From: Eremomyces bilateralis CBS 781.70
Lineage: Eukaryota > Ascomycota > Dothideomycetes > Eremomycetales > Eremomycetaceae
Assembly (NCBI RefSeq): GCF_010015585.1
Contig: NW_022985080.1
Location: forward strand, 30,323 to 94,322
Length of the DNA stretch: 64,000 bases
Reading direction: 5' to 3'
Both the position numbers and the translations under genes were made by a program. Under the pieces are notes generated by a model. The model was not told the origin of the DNA, ran no database searches, and worked only from the letters and a program-made list of their open reading frames with translations. Shown here piece after piece: positions 689 through 12,095 of the stretch. Numbering within the stretch: the stretch's first letter is position 1; every line of letters begins with the position of its first letter.

Positions 689-3194
689 ATGGCGCTCGTT
701 TACCATAATAGTCCCTTCCCAGAGGACCATGATATCAAAGATGAGGATCCTACCCCGAGAGGAAATCCTGAGCAATGGCGGTTTACACCCTCGATAATGG
801 ATCCCAATTCTTTCACCTTTACTTCTTTCGCCAATCAGCCGCCTGGCTACTATACCCCGACGCCTGGTGGCACGAACACCTTCTATCACAGTCAAGCTGG
901 AGATCTTCATACTCCCGGCTTCACTATGGGGCTGGGGACTCCGCTCTCTTTACCACATGTAACCTCAGAAGGTGGACCGGCCACTACAGCCCCGTTGCAC
1001 GGGTTTCAGCCATCCATCGCGCCGCTCCATTTTCAGAACCCGAACCCTTTCGCAATCCCTCATCACCCGGAATCATTTGCTCCACATCAGTTCCAGCAGC
1101 CAGAGTCTTCCTTCCATCCGTTGGAGACCAGCCACGAGGACCCTTCAATAGGCGACATGCATGTCGATGTTGAGATGCACGAAGACCCCCAGGCGCTATC
1201 TTTTCCTGCGACCTTTGAGCAGACGAGTTTGATGCCCCATGCTCCTCAACAAGCTCTTGAGAAGTAAGCGTACCATTTGAAATTTGTTCATGATTTTGAT
1301 TCTTACATGGCCCAGTTTCCGATATCACGTTACTTTGAATGCTCCGACAGCAATGATCAAACACGCAGACGAGATACCAGTCACTTATCTGAACAAAGGA
1401 CAAGCATACTCTATCTCGGTCGTCGATACCAGACCAGAACACATGTCTGGGGTTATACCCCGATACCGAACGTTCGTCAGAATATCATTCGAAGACGAAC
1501 AGCAGCGACAACGACCGACCGCATGCTGGCAACTTTGGAAAGAAGGCCGAGGATCAAATGAGGCTCATCACCGTGGTGGTCGACTGCAGGCCGTCGAATT
1601 CGTTGATCCATCTCAAATCGGTGGCGGCGAGCTGCTCGGACGACCACAGGTCGAAGTGGACTGCGCCTCTTTCGATGGGTTCGCGGTATTCTGGTCCCCC
1701 CCGCCAGGCGGATCAAGCGAATGCTCCATCGCTGTTAGATTCAACTTTCTCTCCACCGATTTCAGCCACTCGAAAGGCGTCAAGGGCATCCCAGTGCGAC
1801 TCTGCACCAAGACCGAGTTGGTGACCTTCGAGGGTCCCCAAGGCTCTCCGGAGCAGATTCCACCGAACCAGACTATTACCACAACACCCGAAACATGTTA
1901 TTGCAAAGTCAAGCTATTCCGTGACCATGGTGCGGAACGCAAGCTCTCGAATGACGTCGCCCACGTCAGGAAATCGATCGAGAAATTGAAAACCCAGATT
2001 TCCAACCTCGAATCTGGCTTGAAAGACTTCGGCAAACGCAAACGTGCAAGCCTGGAATCGAAGACGATTGCTGGGAGCTCACGGCCGGGCAAGGTTCCGA
2101 AGCACAAGCGCACCTGGAGCATGTCGAGTGCAAGCACTGGCGAGCGAGAGGGCAGTGGAAGAGGAGGCGCTGAGGAGGACCTTCATCTCAAGCTGGCTAC
2201 TCTTCAAGACATGTTTACCAGTACTCGACCAGCCAGTGTCCTTTATTTGAAAGGAGAGGAACCAGATGATCCGGACCTCCATCCTGTTCACCTGACCGGT
2301 ACTGAGGCGTTCGATTTGGTAACAAAATTGGATGCTTCTACTGGTCCCCTGGACGCTGGCGTCTGGGAGCGCCAAAGTGGTCACTCGAGCAGCATTGTAA
2401 GCCCTACACCAAGTACGCGCAGTATCCACAGCGGCGGTCGAAGAAGCTCGCAGATTGCGCCATTTAATCCCTCGGGCAGAATTGAGAGCAATGAATGGCG
2501 CAGCATAACCGGTCAGACTGCTACTGGCGACCTTCCTGGACAATCGGTGACCGCGAACATGGCCGGGCAGTTGTCAAGCGTCCCTGAGGGTCCTGTGAAG
2601 GTCCCGAAACAAAGTACTGGCGGTGACGACGGCCACAGCTTATCAGGATGGATAGAGGCGATCGGCGTGGACTATAGTTACCAACCGCCATCCGAACAGG
2701 CGATGAAGCCAAGTGAGTCCCCCCCATTTTTTTATTTTAAAAAAAACCAAAAAACATCTTGTTTGCATTGTCTAACGTGAAGAGCAATAGTTGCAAGTTT
2801 CTATATTCTTCCACGCTTGCGCGGCCAACCCTCTGACGACCCCTATTACCGCGCCATCTACCTCATGACTCGAACCGCGAAAGACTTGACCGATACCATT
2901 TCTGCGAAATGCGGTATCGATCCAACCTTGGTGCAACGTGCTCTGCGCGTCAACGCGAAAGGACTCAGCATCCTCATCGACGACGACGTGGTCCGTGAAA
3001 TGCCGGAAGGCATGGATATGGTCGCCGAGTTCGTTGATCTGAAGCCAGAGCGTGGTATCGACAGTCTGCCCGCGCCTCCTGCACGAACGAAGGGCGAGTG
3101 GGATCCCGATCATACCGATATTCAACTCGACAGTGACATCGGGATTGTTGAAGATAATCGAGTGGACGTGTGGGAACTACGCCTCATTTTCTAA
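689..3194 (+). CDS. CP2/grainyhead-family transcription factor
   Basis: Predicted DNA-binding transcription factor of the CP2 (grainyhead/LSF) family, 791 residues, acting in the nucleus. Exons 689-1263, 1316-2712 and 2791-3194; introns of 52 and 78 bases have GTAAGC and GTGAGT donors and AG acceptors, and the phases join cleanly. Residues 1-190 are Pro/Ser/Thr-rich and probably disordered. The CP2 DNA-binding domain begins at about residue 193 (FRYHVTLNAPTAMIKH) and runs to about 400, with the family signature around CWQLWKEG. A short coiled coil follows (about 405-425). The last exon (658-791) encodes the conserved C-terminal module with LRGQPSDDPYYRAIYLMTRT, which in this family mediates dimerisation. 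In Neurospora and Aspergillus such factors affect cell-wall remodelling and conidial separation (family knowledge). The start at 689 (MALVYHNS) is the in-frame ATG closest to the conserved part; an upstream in-frame extension is not supported. Confidence 0.9.
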
Positions 3195-5100
3195 TCCTTC
3201 TCCATGGAGCTGCCGGCCCAATAATCGCATTCCTTACGACGCATCTTTCTTTGACCAAGACTGGTTCCCAAGCGAACAAATACCTCCCTAGCTAAGGGTT
3301 CCTTAACTCTAATATTTCTTACGGACTTGCATCGGCGAAATAGGTGTTGCTTCAATGCACTCCTTTGACCATTTCGCCAACGATCACGCTAAATTTGGAT
3401 CAACTATTTACTTCAATGATACCCCGAAATCTTTTTGTCCTTATTCCTTTCAACGACCAAGCAATGATAACGGGCAATGATTCCTCCTTCATAAATTCCC
3501 TGCAAAAATTTTATTGCCGAGGGCACGGAATTTCCACTCACTCTCCTTTGTTTCTTGGAGTTAGCTTTGGATTTATCTATCGGGATTAATTCTCTGCCAC
3601 CCTACAGCCGGTCACCATTAGATCTCGCGAACTGTCTTTGCCCATGAAATTCATTTCTAATATATGAGATACCCCGATCCTTCATGATCAACACAATAAT
3701 GTGCTTTCCTACGTCCGCTTTGCCTCCCAAGCGCCATGTAGGAAAGGAGGTGGGCTGTGCGGCACACTTTGGACCACGTACTGTACCCTGGACAGGGAAT
3801 TTTCTCCTTTATTCGCAGTTTCGGAATTCCTTTAACTTGTTGGCGCGGATTGGCTCGTGGCTGGCCACAGCTAGCGCGGTCATCCCCCCTTTGACTTCAG
3901 TCTGTATGTCTCCGAGCAAATATATGGCGAATTATTGGCCCAAGGGACGAGTATTGTTCTCTCATATGTAAAGGTAATCAAAACCTGCCTAAGATAATTT
4001 ACAGCGCGTTTGAAGAGGATGGGGTCTCCTTGGGCGCAATTCACCCCCACCCTTTTGTTTCAGCGGCCGACAGTTCGATCCATTCAGTACCTACGATATA
4101 AGTTGGACGCCTTGCGATCACCTCACTCGACGTGCCAACTTTCTACAAACCATTGGCCATTCCGGTGGACTGGAAAGCTGGTTCCCTGCAGCCTTGGGCC
4201 AGTGAGGATTCTTACCGGGTTCTCGTCGAAATGGCACCCTGAGGTGTGCATTAGGGCTGTCTCTGTCAAGTTCGATTCTGCGAGTTAAATCGCTGATACG
4301 GACTTGATATCTAGGAGTCTGACGGGATACGCTGGGGAACGCTGCCTGGGAGGTGATGGCTCGGCCCTTAGGGTGTTAATACGGGACCATTGGCTACGGC
4401 CCCAGGAGAAAGCGAGGGGGGGCTCGAAGATGCAGGAAGACGTAGCTGAGCATATCGAGTTGACGAAGGTTTATTGATAGTGACAACGGTGATGCATCCA
4501 ACGGCACATGGATCAGACCACGCGCAGGTTATTCGACAGATTCAGGGCCCTGTGGCAGAAGCCGATGCAGGAGAGTCTGCCAGGACCTAGGGGAAACCAT
4601 GTGCATGGAGGAGTGGGATGTTCAGGAGAACGCGTGTCCAACGGACGGTGAGAGGTTGGAGATGTTAGGATCTTCGTGCCTTGTACCACCTTTCTCTACG
4701 AGCGCTGCAAAACCACCATAAAAAGAATGAAACCATGGGATTTGGTCGAGATCGTCCTTACTTTCAGTGTAGGAAGTGATATGCGGACAACCCTCCTTGC
4801 GTGTACATTGCACTGCTCGCTTCCATGCGGAGGCCATTACACGACAACAGAAGGATTTACTGGGACCCTCTTCTATATTTTAATTTTATTGAATATACCG
4901 ACAGTCTGGTACGAGCACCAACAGCATCCAGGTCCATAGTGTAGTGTTGAGGCATACAGTACCCGGCGCATGTAAGGTACATACATAGTATGTATCGATC
5001 ACGATCGTGATCTATCCTGCCACCATACATGTACATCAACGTGGCAGCATGGTATAGGTACATGTCTGGCGACCATGTCAGAGATCACCTTGTTTGACGC
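3195..5100. other. gene-poor intergenic stretch; palindromes near 5 kb
   Basis: No frame here has a recognisable domain, good codon context or splice-supported extension. Near the end are a 7-base inverted repeat with a 3-base loop (TACATAC / GTATGTA, 4978-4994) and a perfect 16-base palindrome (GATCACGATCGTGATC, 4997-5012). Otherwise I see nothing. Confidence 0.5.
4978..5012. repeat. adjacent inverted repeat and 16-bp palindrome
   Basis: TACATAC-ATA-GTATGTA at 4978-4994 is a 7-base stem with a 3-base loop. Two bases later GATCACGATCGTGATC (4997-5012) is a perfect 16-base palindrome. They could form small hairpins or be a dimeric protein site; the function is unknown. Confidence 0.6.
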
Positions 5101-5340
5101 ATGGGGAGTCATTGCTGGTGGTATTTCTCTTTCACGTTACTGTTTTTGGATGTTAGGGCGTACGACGCTCGCCACCACCGACGTTTCTTCGCGATCTGCA
5201 ACTTGAAACGCTCGGAACTAGGGTTGCGCAAGAACATCCCGCTGACCACTGTGCTATTCCCAGGAGCTCCTGCTATCTACGGGTACGATGATTGGATAAC
5301 CCCCTTTTCGATTAAATTGTTTCCAGATGGGCGTGTATGA
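5101..5340 (+). pseudogene. possible degenerate GH13 alpha-amylase fragment
   Basis: A 79-codon open frame contains HHRRFFAICNLK followed by LRKNIPLTTVLFPGAPAIYG. This resembles the end of the GH13 catalytic domain, where fungal alpha-amylases have the region-IV motif NHDNPRF, then a lysine-asparagine pair, then a hydrophobic strand ending GIPIIYxGQE. The catalytic-region Asp of NHD is not conserved here (HHR), the Glu after the IY is Asp, and I cannot follow the match upstream or downstream. If real it is a decayed relic in the gene-poor stretch; chance resemblance is possible. Confidence 0.3.
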
Positions 5341-6182
5341 CTGCGTCATTGAACGGGCGGTGCTCAGCTCGCCTTTGTCGAATATTTATCGAACCAGGAC
5401 ATTGAAAAGGTCTGGAAGGAGGTTGGATCCTAGGTATGCCATGTAGACACAAACTGCGGAAACGAGGGGATGCTGGAAGCCTATCTGCAAGAACCTGTAG
5501 CTGTAGGGCATCCACTGGGGGAGAAGGTTCCGGAACAATCCACTAGTACTAAATACTGCTCCATGCAAGATGCACCGACTGACGAGTGGTGCAGGTAAAA
5601 ATGGTAAGTTCGCATCATGATATCATCTGCCTGACTATGGATTCTATCACGCTGAAGCTAGGGCACACTGCCACGTCGACAACAAGGATCGCCAACGCCA
5701 CGACATTTACTACCTCGTCATCGGACCTATGCCGAGGACTACTACCTTAACAATCAGTGGCGCCGGCAACATTCAAAGGAGGCAATCTTGTATCATGGTC
5801 ATTCATTAGACATGGAGTCATTTCACCAATATCAATACATAACTAGCATTTGCGTAGAGCCCTATGACCGAAACCGAGGCTCGCGAGTATTACATCATCC
5901 TCTTTAAGTAGGTCAGAACTTGTATAATACCATTCTTAGATATATGTAATATAACCTTGGCAACTGTGCAACCGCTCAACTCCAGACAAATTGAATTGAT
6001 ACATCCAAATACATTCCTATACTTCTGAAGCTCTTGCGACTAGAGTGACCTATGTACAGTACATCGACGAAGTGTATGAAAGCCATGTCCCTTGGAACTC
6101 AGTATTGGCGGAAGCGAAGCTTGAACACGTCAGTAAGACACAGTAGCAACGGCTGGTGTAGTATCCACAAACCTCAATGAGA
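5341..6182. other. intergenic stretch downstream of the repeat-peptide gene
   Basis: A 59-codon frame around 5632-5810 on the plus strand (beginning DYGFYHAEARAHCHV) and other short frames are open, but none has a recognisable domain. The sequence is AT-richer from 5930 to 6020. It probably includes the 3' untranslated region of the minus-strand peptide gene that ends at 6183. Confidence 0.4.
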
Positions 6183-6478
6183 TCAGCTATTGAATGGGAC
6201 AACACCGCCCTCTGGCGTCGACTGGACCGGCGCAGTGTCACTTGGGGCGCGGACGACTATATCTTCGACAGCGCGTTTACTGTTGAAGGGAACAACGCCA
6301 CCGTCAACAGTGGACTTCACGGGCTGGGTATCACTCCGTGCCGATACAGCTACCGATATTGTGTTAGCTAATACCAGTTCTGGTGCTTAAGTACATGCGT
6401 CCTCATACCATCGCTGACCGGAGCCGCATAGCCGAAGGCGAGGAGAGTAAAGATGGACATGAGAATGCTAGACCGCAT
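6183..6478 (-). CDS. small secreted repeat-peptide precursor with Kex2 site (KEP/RiPP-like)
   Basis: A 78-residue predicted secreted precursor, found by reading the minus strand. Exon 1 is 6478-6409 and exon 2 is 6349-6183. The 59-base intron 6350-6408 has a GTATGA donor, a GCTAAC branch site and a TAG acceptor. Residues 1-19 (MRSSILMSIFTLLAFGYAA) form a signal peptide with likely cleavage near residues 19-20. The rest holds two 19-residue repeats, SDTQPVKSTVDGGVVPFNS (29-47) and SDTAPVQSTPEGGVVPFNS (60-78). They are joined by KRAVEDIVVRAP, which contains a Lys-Arg Kex2 site at 48-49. Fifteen of 19 residues are identical, and 12 of those 15 use different synonymous codons, so the repeat is maintained as protein. 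The architecture matches Kex2-processed repeat proteins, a class that includes alpha-type pheromone precursors and dikaritin RiPP precursors. No tailoring enzyme (such as a DUF3328 protein) was seen nearby. The function is unknown. Confidence 0.78.
6350..6408 (-). other. intron of the repeat-peptide precursor gene
   Basis: The donor GTATGA, branch site GCTAAC (12 bases before the acceptor) and acceptor GGTAG define a 59-base phase-1 intron. Without its removal translation stops after 37 codons. Splicing joins the signal peptide to the repeat region in frame. Confidence 0.75.
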
Positions 6479-8922
<2,444 letters not shown>

Positions 8923-9482
8923 TAACCTCCATCTTTGGATCATACCCAAAGTTAGAAGCATTCAAGGACACTGAAGTGGGCTACCTTTCTTTTCCTGCTG
9001 AAGGTAATTCCTGAATTACAACCCAAATGATTAGATGACAGATGAACAAAGCTACTCCCCAACCTTGATGACTCTCCTTTCTCAAATGGCTGAGTCGAAG
9101 AGTGATATTTCTTGTTTGGTGTGATGAGAGAGAGAGATTCATACGCCCGTCAGGCCTCTCAGTGAGGCCCATGTGGGTGTTTGGTGTGGTGAGAGAGAGA
9201 TTCATACGCCCGTCAGGCCTCTCAGCGAGGCCCATGTGGGGTGTTTGGTGTGGTTTAATTGATATTTTTATTTTGGAGCCTTGTAATGGAATTTGGTGTG
9301 GTGCTAGGAAGAAGAATATTTTACGTGAGGTAAACAAGGCAACCATCATGTGATATGAATCACATGTGCACAGCATGATGATGATCGCGAATCTCAACCG
9401 CTCAAACTGCGAGAGAGCAAAGTCATAGAACCAAATGGCCAATTTCTAAAATACTACTCCTCTAGAAGAGGATCTGAAACTG
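8923..9482. repeat. intergenic with a 64/65-bp tandem repeat containing a hairpin
   Basis: From 9114 to about 9254 a unit of 64-65 bases beginning GTTTGGTGTG is repeated twice, with the start of a third copy. Each full copy contains GGCCTC-TCAGY-GAGGCC, a 6-base stem with a 5-base loop, next to a run of GA dinucleotides. A further GTTTGGTGTGGT-like piece follows near 9292. The repeat makes a minus-strand frame look protein-like, but only because the DNA repeats. Confidence 0.75.
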
Positions 9483-10649: not shown

Positions 10650-12095
10650 TTACTTGAAGAGCCTGTTGAAAGTCTGGTAGATTCCGTCGAGCTCCAATTC
10701 TGTGGCATCCCAACTATCTTCTGTCGGGCCCCAAGCGGGCGTGCTGCGGTAGGAGTTCAGGTTGAGACCGTGCCAATTAGTTTTCGCAAAACCTTTCAGG
10801 AAGCTCTCGTGAAAGTCTCCACCGGCATTGGCGCGGCCGCTGTGACGCGTCTGGGGATAGGCACCGTGGAGCTTCTTCCAGATGACCACCGCCACTGCAG
10901 TTGGGTGTACATCTACCGCATTCCTTCTAGCCACGTACTCAGCCAGAGAGTAGAATAGCGATGACTTACCGATTGTCGGGGTAGACTGTTGCCACCTACG
11001 GTTCATTTTTGAGATGTAGGTGTTGATGACCACTGGCGGGCAGGAAAGATCCAAGACCAGCTCTGCGAACGAGTATTTGGGGTTACGCGATTGTTTGAGG
11101 AGACGCTTTACCTGGTCGAGAGGCGTCCTCAAGGCATATTTGCCGATTGCGCCAACGAACGCAACCCAAGAGATGATCTCGGCCGCATCGAAGGTGCTTC
11201 GATGCTGTCGGAATTCCACCGTATCCTTCGCGTAGCGGCTCTCGCTAAGCTTACGAAGATTCCTGTAGTTGACCGCATAATTCCGAACTTCGCAGTCGAG
11301 AGCACGTTTGAGGCCGTCCCAGGTTTCCACTGATTCGATTTTCGCCGTCCACCAGGCGAGGGGGTCGCTGAGAATTCCCGGCTTGGTGGCATTGTTGTTG
11401 TATCGAAGTGTATTTGGCTTGCTCCAATGGTGGAGGGGGGAAATCCGAGAGGCGGTATGGATCTGATCGATGAACCGCTCGAAGACGGTGGTAATTCCCT
11501 CGATGGTTTTCACTGAACCCTTCGAGAAGCCCCCTTTCTTGGTGCCAATGTGGACGTGGAAGCCCGTATTACCATTGGTCAGGATGTGGAAATACGACCC
11601 GGGCTTGTTGAAGTGTACCTGAACAGCCCTGAGCACTGTTTTGATTTCTGATGACCATTTCTGCTGGTCTGAAAGCTTGTAGATCGGCGAGTTGAGTTCA
11701 ATGCCGAAAGGTGTGTATGAACCGGAGTGCCCGAGGTGGGCAAGAGACCTCTCCAATCGACTGTCCTCGTCGTCCGTCAAGTGAACTGAATTGTCTTCAC
11801 ACACGAGCCACTTCTTGTACATCTCTTTGCTAGTAATCTCGCGACTGTCAACGAGGACGTCGGTTAATGCAGTGTTGCTGTGAATGGCATGACGAACCTC
11901 CATTAATCCCTCGAAGGGTGCCGCGTAGACGACTGAAACTCCGTTGGAGAAAATGTTCGGACGCTTGTATTTCGAGTTGTTCAGGACCAAGAGAACCAAC
12001 TCAATCTCCACGCCAATCGTCAACTCTTCAGGTGAGTCATCAAGATTATGAGGGGCGGCGGCCTTGCAAAGACTAGAGATCGTATTCTTGAGCAT
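10650..12095 (-). CDS. putative amidoligase (COOH-NH2 ligase superfamily, glutamine-synthetase-like)
   Basis: A single-exon 481-residue protein of the putative amidoligase family (PF12224 type). It would use ATP to join a carboxylate to an amine through an acyl-phosphate; the substrates in fungi are unknown. Family landmarks are TIGVEIELVLLV near residue 26, FGIELNSP near 130, GFHVHIGTKKGGFSKG near 179-194 with the metal/ATP-binding His residues, and TVEFRQHRST near 296, whose Glu/Arg are typical of the glutamine synthetase fold. It has no signal peptide. It is transcribed towards the RING gene; the stop is 234 bases from that gene's stop. No peptidase or GATase partner, which bacterial amidoligases often have, is next to it. 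Confidence 0.82.
   Translation of the reverse strand: MLKNTISSLCKAAAPHNLDDSPEELTIGVEIELVLLVLNNSKYKRPNIFSNGVSVVYAAPFEGLMEVRHAIHSNTALTDVLVDSREITSKEMYKKWLVCEDNSVHLTDDEDSRLERSLAHLGHSGSYTPFGIELNSPIYKLSDQQKWSSEIKTVLRAVQVHFNKPGSYFHILTNGNTGFHVHIGTKKGGFSKGSVKTIEGITTVFERFIDQIHTASRISPLHHWSKPNTLRYNNNATKPGILSDPLAWWTAKIESVETWDGLKRALDCEVRNYAVNYRNLRKLSESRYAKDTVEFRQHRSTFDAAEIISWVAFVGAIGKYALRTPLDQVKRLLKQSRNPKYSFAELVLDLSCPPVVINTYISKMNRRWQQSTPTIGKSSLFYSLAEYVARRNAVDVHPTAVAVVIWKKLHGAYPQTRHSGRANAGGDFHESFLKGFAKTNWHGLNLNSYRSTPAWGPTEDSWDATELELDGIYQTFNRLFK

Follow-up and report, generated by a model that had tools for sequence, protein, structure and literature searches.

A predicted Kex2-type secreted peptide precursor with two repeat copies in the dothideomycete Eremomyces bilateralis

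The stretch of DNA analysed here (the window, 64,000 nucleotides) comes from the genome of the dothideomycete Eremomyces bilateralis CBS 781.70 (order Eremomycetales). On its minus strand lies a short two-exon gene (Table 1), whose product reads, from the N- to the C-terminus, MRSSILMSIFTLLAFGYA-APVSDAVSAR-SDTQPVKSTVDGGVVPFNS-KR-AVEDIVVRAP-SDTAPVQSTPEGGVVPFNS, the division by dashes being ours. The N-terminal segment satisfies the crude rules of hydropathy and small residues for a signal peptide, with a best 10-residue hydropathy of 2.54. It is followed by two copies of a repeat, SDTQPVKSTVDGGVVPFNS and SDTAPVQSTPEGGVVPFNS, the first with a Lys-Arg pair immediately behind it. This pair is the only dibasic site of the precursor; at its outer ends the repeat array borders on the signal-peptide part and on the stop codon, not on further dibasic sites. 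Neither repeat contains Tyr, Trp or Cys. The preliminary description of this locus had given 78 residues, a 59-base intron, two 19-residue repeats and a Lys-Arg linker, all of which we recovered exactly on the minus strand.

Table 1. Coordinates of the precursor gene, its parts and the opposite-strand open stretch, in positions of the window
Feature	Position	Strand	Remarks
Whole two-exon gene, 78-residue precursor	6183..6478	-	Public hypothetical protein P152DRAFT_474783
Exon 1, 70 nt	6409..6478	-	Same protein in the public record
Intron, 59-base, phase-1	6350..6408	-	GTATGA donor, GCTAAC branch site, TAG acceptor
Exon 2, 167 nt	6183..6349	-	TGA stop included
Signal peptide (predicted), residues 1-18	6425..6478	-	Probable cleavage after GYA; hydropathy
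Repeat 1, residues 29-47	6279..6335	-	
Lys-Arg, Kex2-type site (predicted), residues 48-49	6273..6278	-	
Spacer AVEDIVVRAP, residues 50-59	6243..6272	-	Precedes repeat 2
Repeat 2, residues 60-78	6186..6242	-	Stop codon immediately after
Opposite-strand open stretch, 69 residues without Met	6181..6387	+	Shares its wobble positions with the minus frame; taken as non-coding

A protein search with the precursor returned 9 candidates, of which one reached E 1 or better, namely the hypothetical protein P152DRAFT_474783 of the same strain, which is identical over 78/78 residues. Because this identity spans the splice junction, the annotation pipeline must have built the same two-exon model. The interval on the minus strand is very probably a real gene that has been correctly read. 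The gene had previously been described as unlisted and as beyond ordinary gene callers because of its shortness and split structure; the public record contradicts both statements. The description of it as lying alone in a 4.7-kb gene-poor stretch agrees with the list of open reading frames, none of which, at 100 residues or more, overlaps 3195-7897. Across this stretch its neighbour at 1284-3194 on the plus strand is a CP2/grainyhead-like transcription factor, with PF04516 matched over 1284-2780 and GRHL1_C over 2817-3194. The reading frames of the window recognised by Pfam include, besides this factor, AMMECR1, amidoligase, MBOAT, actin, proteasome, Nup159, helicase, exportin, cutinase and glycosyl hydrolase family 47 proteins; to our knowledge, none of these families is a known RiPP enzyme. 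Directly downstream of the AMMECR1-type frames, at 9113-9254, a 63-base unit is repeated in 2.2 tandem copies with 93% matches and gives rise to self-similar frames on both strands. The amidoligase is a 481-residue frame at 10650-12095 on the minus strand that matches Amidoligase_2 (PF12224, putative amidoligase enzyme) with an E value of 3.4e-15.

Searches for relatives were carried out at several levels. With a lengthened query, 1 of 8000 scored candidates reached E 10 or better, at E 2.1; this 169-residue protein shares pieces resembling VVRAPSDT, has no GGVVPFNS, and was judged a chance match and set aside as a relative. The precursor has no domain in Pfam and no solved relative among PDB sequences. 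A protein search of the genome for paralogues recovered only the gene's own two exons, and the genome pattern for GVVPFN followed by WS as the start of the next codon matched at the two copies only. At gathering scores Rfam matched nothing in the window, and the string VVPFNS was absent from the main texts of the literature searched. As far as these searches reach, the precursor thus appears to be an orphan in sequence, although the broad kind to which it would belong, that of Kex2-type secreted peptide precursors, is already known and common in fungi.

The two copies of the repeat are identical at 15/19 residues, and 12 of these 15 use different codons, exactly as counted in the preliminary description. 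As DNA they differ at 19/57 bases (67% identity), with 14/19 of the differences at third codon positions. When 19 random substitutions were placed in a neutral simulation, 15 or more residues were kept in only 1/200000 trials. The dN between the copies is about 0.15-0.16, whereas dS is saturated (NG86) or 2.08 (ML); the other two of the four methods used, LWL85 and YN00, returned no value. Since the copies are so diverged as DNA, nucleotide repeat finders are silent on them: find_repeats gave 0 families in 5800-7000 and Tandem Repeats Finder did not list the pair. The repeat region is under codon constraint in the register whose wobble positions are shared by the minus and plus strands. As no convincing relative is found in other species, the case for this constraint comes from the two copies inside a single gene. 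We also considered whether the repeat extends into the spacers preceding the two copies; their likeness is not significant (752/5000 shuffles are equally good), and the extension was rejected.

The earlier argument from silent sites to purifying selection holds for constraint on the repeat, but does not by itself choose the strand. In the plus register at 6181-6387 the copies are likewise identical at 15/19 residues and the changes mostly synonymous, so silent-site divergence alone cannot pick the strand when the two frames are aligned wobble to wobble. The choice rests on other features. The copy-to-copy identity at a lag of 93 drops, in copy 2, at the minus-strand stop codon and, in copy 1, at the Lys-Arg pair, as would be expected if the shared C-terminus is what matters. 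The minus strand also offers a start, a predicted signal peptide, an intron and a stop. Codon scores for the repeat region, a weak measure, give +5.9 bits to the minus frame against -3.7 for the wobble-aligned plus frame, while another plus frame reaches +6.1. The plus peptide has no relative in Pfam or in the protein search (0 of 5 candidates at E 10 or better, with candidates restricted to about 38-121 residues), and its 4 weak rows against PDB sequences (best E 0.069) were taken as chance. The public annotation, too, carries the minus model. On these grounds the minus strand is strongly favoured as the coding one. The converse arrangement would place 6181-6387 within an exon of a plus-strand gene carrying two GTTPPSxVDxTGxVSL repeats, with the minus frame as its shadow. 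It can claim the shared identity, the third-position changes and the codon score of that other plus frame; given the stretch devoid of Met, the negative score of its own frame, and repeat boundaries coinciding with a stop codon and a dibasic site of the other strand, we consider it extremely improbable.

To place the repeat-plus-dibasic arrangement in context, we scanned the six frames of the window for 19-residue self-matches of at least 12 identities, and used for comparison 230 kb of the same genome (200 kb of contig C1 and 30 kb of contig C14). The window gave 5 rows, namely the minus-strand repeat, its antisense image, the tandem repeat at 9113-9254 on both strands, and a stretch of the Nup159-type frame; of these, the minus-strand repeat alone has its copies separated by a dibasic site. 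In the comparison sequence 31 open segments had a row, and among the 26 listed of these, 18 were runs of masked letters, 5 fell in C1:210001-220000, and 3 were Ser-/Pro-rich. As a dibasic site also separates the copies in 3/5 of the segments in C1:210001-220000, the combination is uncommon but not unique. The C1 interval carries VSAVSFSPDGKTLASASYD-type repeats that are 18/19 identical at a lag of 42 in a 397-residue open segment, with masked letters also present, and these resemble a high-identity WD40 repeat gene. A crude model of a signal peptide followed by an intron fits 1/456 open segments in the window, this being the precursor gene itself, and 2/1383 in the 230 kb elsewhere; its range had been widened after a narrower one missed the real gene (0/456 in the window, 2/1383 elsewhere).

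In our view the gene product is probably a secreted two-copy peptide precursor that Kex2 processes into linear peptides with a putative signalling role. Signal peptidase would remove residues 1-18 (cutting at GYA/APV), leaving a propeptide of 29 residues, the Lys-Arg pair and another 29 residues. Kex2 would then cut behind Lys48-Arg49, and a Kex1-type carboxypeptidase would trim the exposed pair. The first unit would therefore be started by signal peptidase and ended at the dibasic site, and the second started by Kex2 and ended at the stop codon, which would set the same C-terminus (GGVVPFNS) as in the first. A single Kex2 cut with Kex1-type trimming could thus yield two equivalent products, namely 29-residue acidic linear peptides with the common C-terminal SDTxPVxSTxxGGVVPFNS; their equal lengths may be a coincidence, since the spacers are not significantly alike. 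Further trimming to the 19-residue cores is conceivable, as Arg directly precedes the first and Arg-Ala-Pro the second. The 29-mers have calculated average masses of about 2888 and 2939 Da, the 19-mers of about 1934 and 1889 Da. The calculated charges of both forms range from -1.2 to -3.2, and such acidity disfavours a cationic antimicrobial peptide. A partner probably recognises the unchanged GGVVPFNS end, and the simplest candidate is a receptor involved in signalling between cells or during development. Secretion, cutting and a linear product are the most likely course of events, whereas the signalling role, argued from the absence of alternatives, is the part of this reading that we hold least firmly. 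The secreted Kex2-type repeat precursor originally proposed is supported by both the anatomy and a single genomic match to P_proprotein (the P domain of Kex2-type proteases, on contig C6), with expression, secretion and cutting standing as predictions.

The precursor resembles the fungal KEPs in its signal-peptide-like start and in its near-identical motifs, which lie within the 8-100 residues described for that class, with a dibasic Kex2-type site between them (PMC6339444, PMC7329392). It departs from the surveyed KEPs in having two copies where the rule given in both surveys demands at least three (PMC6339444, PMC7329392), and under that rule it would be listed in neither. Orphan sequences are usual among KEPs, 2560 of which are reported to stand alone (PMC7329392). 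By analogy, the precursor would work like a KEP, but it is filed only under the broader Kex2-type secreted peptide precursors. The yeast alpha-factor precursor MF(ALPHA)2, as described in PMC6339444, has a comparable secreted layout with two near-identical copies and a Lys-Arg site; unlike it, the Eremomyces protein has AV rather than EA or DA after this site and lacks Trp in the repeat, and the database searches, as distinct from a pairwise comparison, reported no similarity between the two.

Three other fates of the minus-strand product deserve consideration. It might be a small secreted protein acting uncut, its repeats an internal duplication and its Lys-Arg pair incidental, as a single dibasic site and only two copies would allow. 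A cut precursor better explains why the shared ends of the copies fall at the dibasic site and at the stop codon, and the sequence searches returned neither a domain nor a solved relative; we regard an uncut product as unlikely. The product might instead serve the Eremomycetales as an alpha-type mating pheromone of novel sequence, or as some other dedicated signalling peptide, with the GGVVPFNS end replacing both motifs known from Dothideomycetes. The secreted Kex2-type layout would suit such a role, as would the two copies, which yeast MF(ALPHA)2 likewise has, and the dothideomycete pheromones are described as diverse (PMC6339444). They are reported to carry either a pair of Cys residues or a PYGxPxG core (PMC6339444), and neither motif occurs in our peptide, whose repeats moreover lack Trp and Tyr. 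A canonical alpha-pheromone was accordingly rejected for this precursor, and the sexual pheromone of the preliminary description finds no backing in either published motif. The genome likewise yielded no convincing canonical precursor to exact patterns searched exon by exon, with the leading Trp required in WCxxxGQxC. That pattern occurs at 3 sites, each in single copy, against 0 for its reversed control, as judged by frame context only: one lies in a 69-residue open stretch without Lys-Arg beside the motif, one in a long reading frame with Arg-Arg after the motif, and one in a 22-residue open stretch. The tandem canonical pattern matched 2 sites, each interrupted by an in-frame stop within the match (7 matches for its reversed control), and PYG[LM]P[IV]G had 0 matches in the genome. 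That this search gave no canonical precursor slightly favours a novel pheromone, but it carries little weight because an exact scan by single exons is incomplete. A mating pheromone is, in our estimate, very unlikely.

The remaining possibility is that the cores, once released by Kex2, are cyclised by UstYa-type enzymes as in the ustiloxin-like (dikaritin) pathway. A signal peptide and Kex2-separated repeats are indeed the layout of ustiloxin-type precursors (PMC7329392), and the genome encodes UstYa homologues, with at least 11 frame matches to UstYa (DUF3328, PF11807). With the genome total being a lower bound, 0/11 of these lie on contig C14 (638805 bases), the contig that carries the precursor gene, whereas in the survey of Umemura 22% of KEPs have UstYa/DUF3328 genes nearby, at a mean distance of 3.09 genes (PMC7329392). 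The nearest recognisable neighbours of our gene are instead the CP2/grainyhead factor, AMMECR1, amidoligase and MBOAT, followed by the actin and proteasome frames, and Pfam saw no RiPP-type enzyme in the 29 scanned of the 139 listed reading frames of the window. Ether cyclisation would call on a core Tyr, which neither repeat possesses; according to the same survey, Tyr is frequent but not universal in dikaritin-type cores, and occurs in 65.6% of the repeats of KEPs with cyclase-gene neighbours versus 38.2% without (PMC7329392). The precursor also differs from the ustiloxin type in having two copies only. Given the lack of both a UstYa match on this contig and a Tyr in the repeats, a cyclic RiPP is highly improbable, although an enzyme encoded elsewhere in the genome could in principle act on the cores. 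A cyclic RiPP cluster was rejected as the most likely reading, and the earlier suggestion of a ribosomal cyclic peptide, for which repeats without Trp and Cys also offer little, is left unsupported.

Already catalogued as a hypothetical protein, the gene product is here read as a probable secreted two-copy peptide precursor. Silent divergence between copies within one gene can provide evidence of selection in orphan genes, provided the opposite strand is checked: the antisense wobble register is a general trap wherever such divergence between repeats serves as coding evidence. The Eremomyces precursor is a clean, testable case, in which a single gene with a single intron would give peptides of two predicted masses through one protease. 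Short two-copy prohormones of this sort are probably undercounted, because they fall below the cut-off of at least three repeats used, as described, in both KEP surveys.
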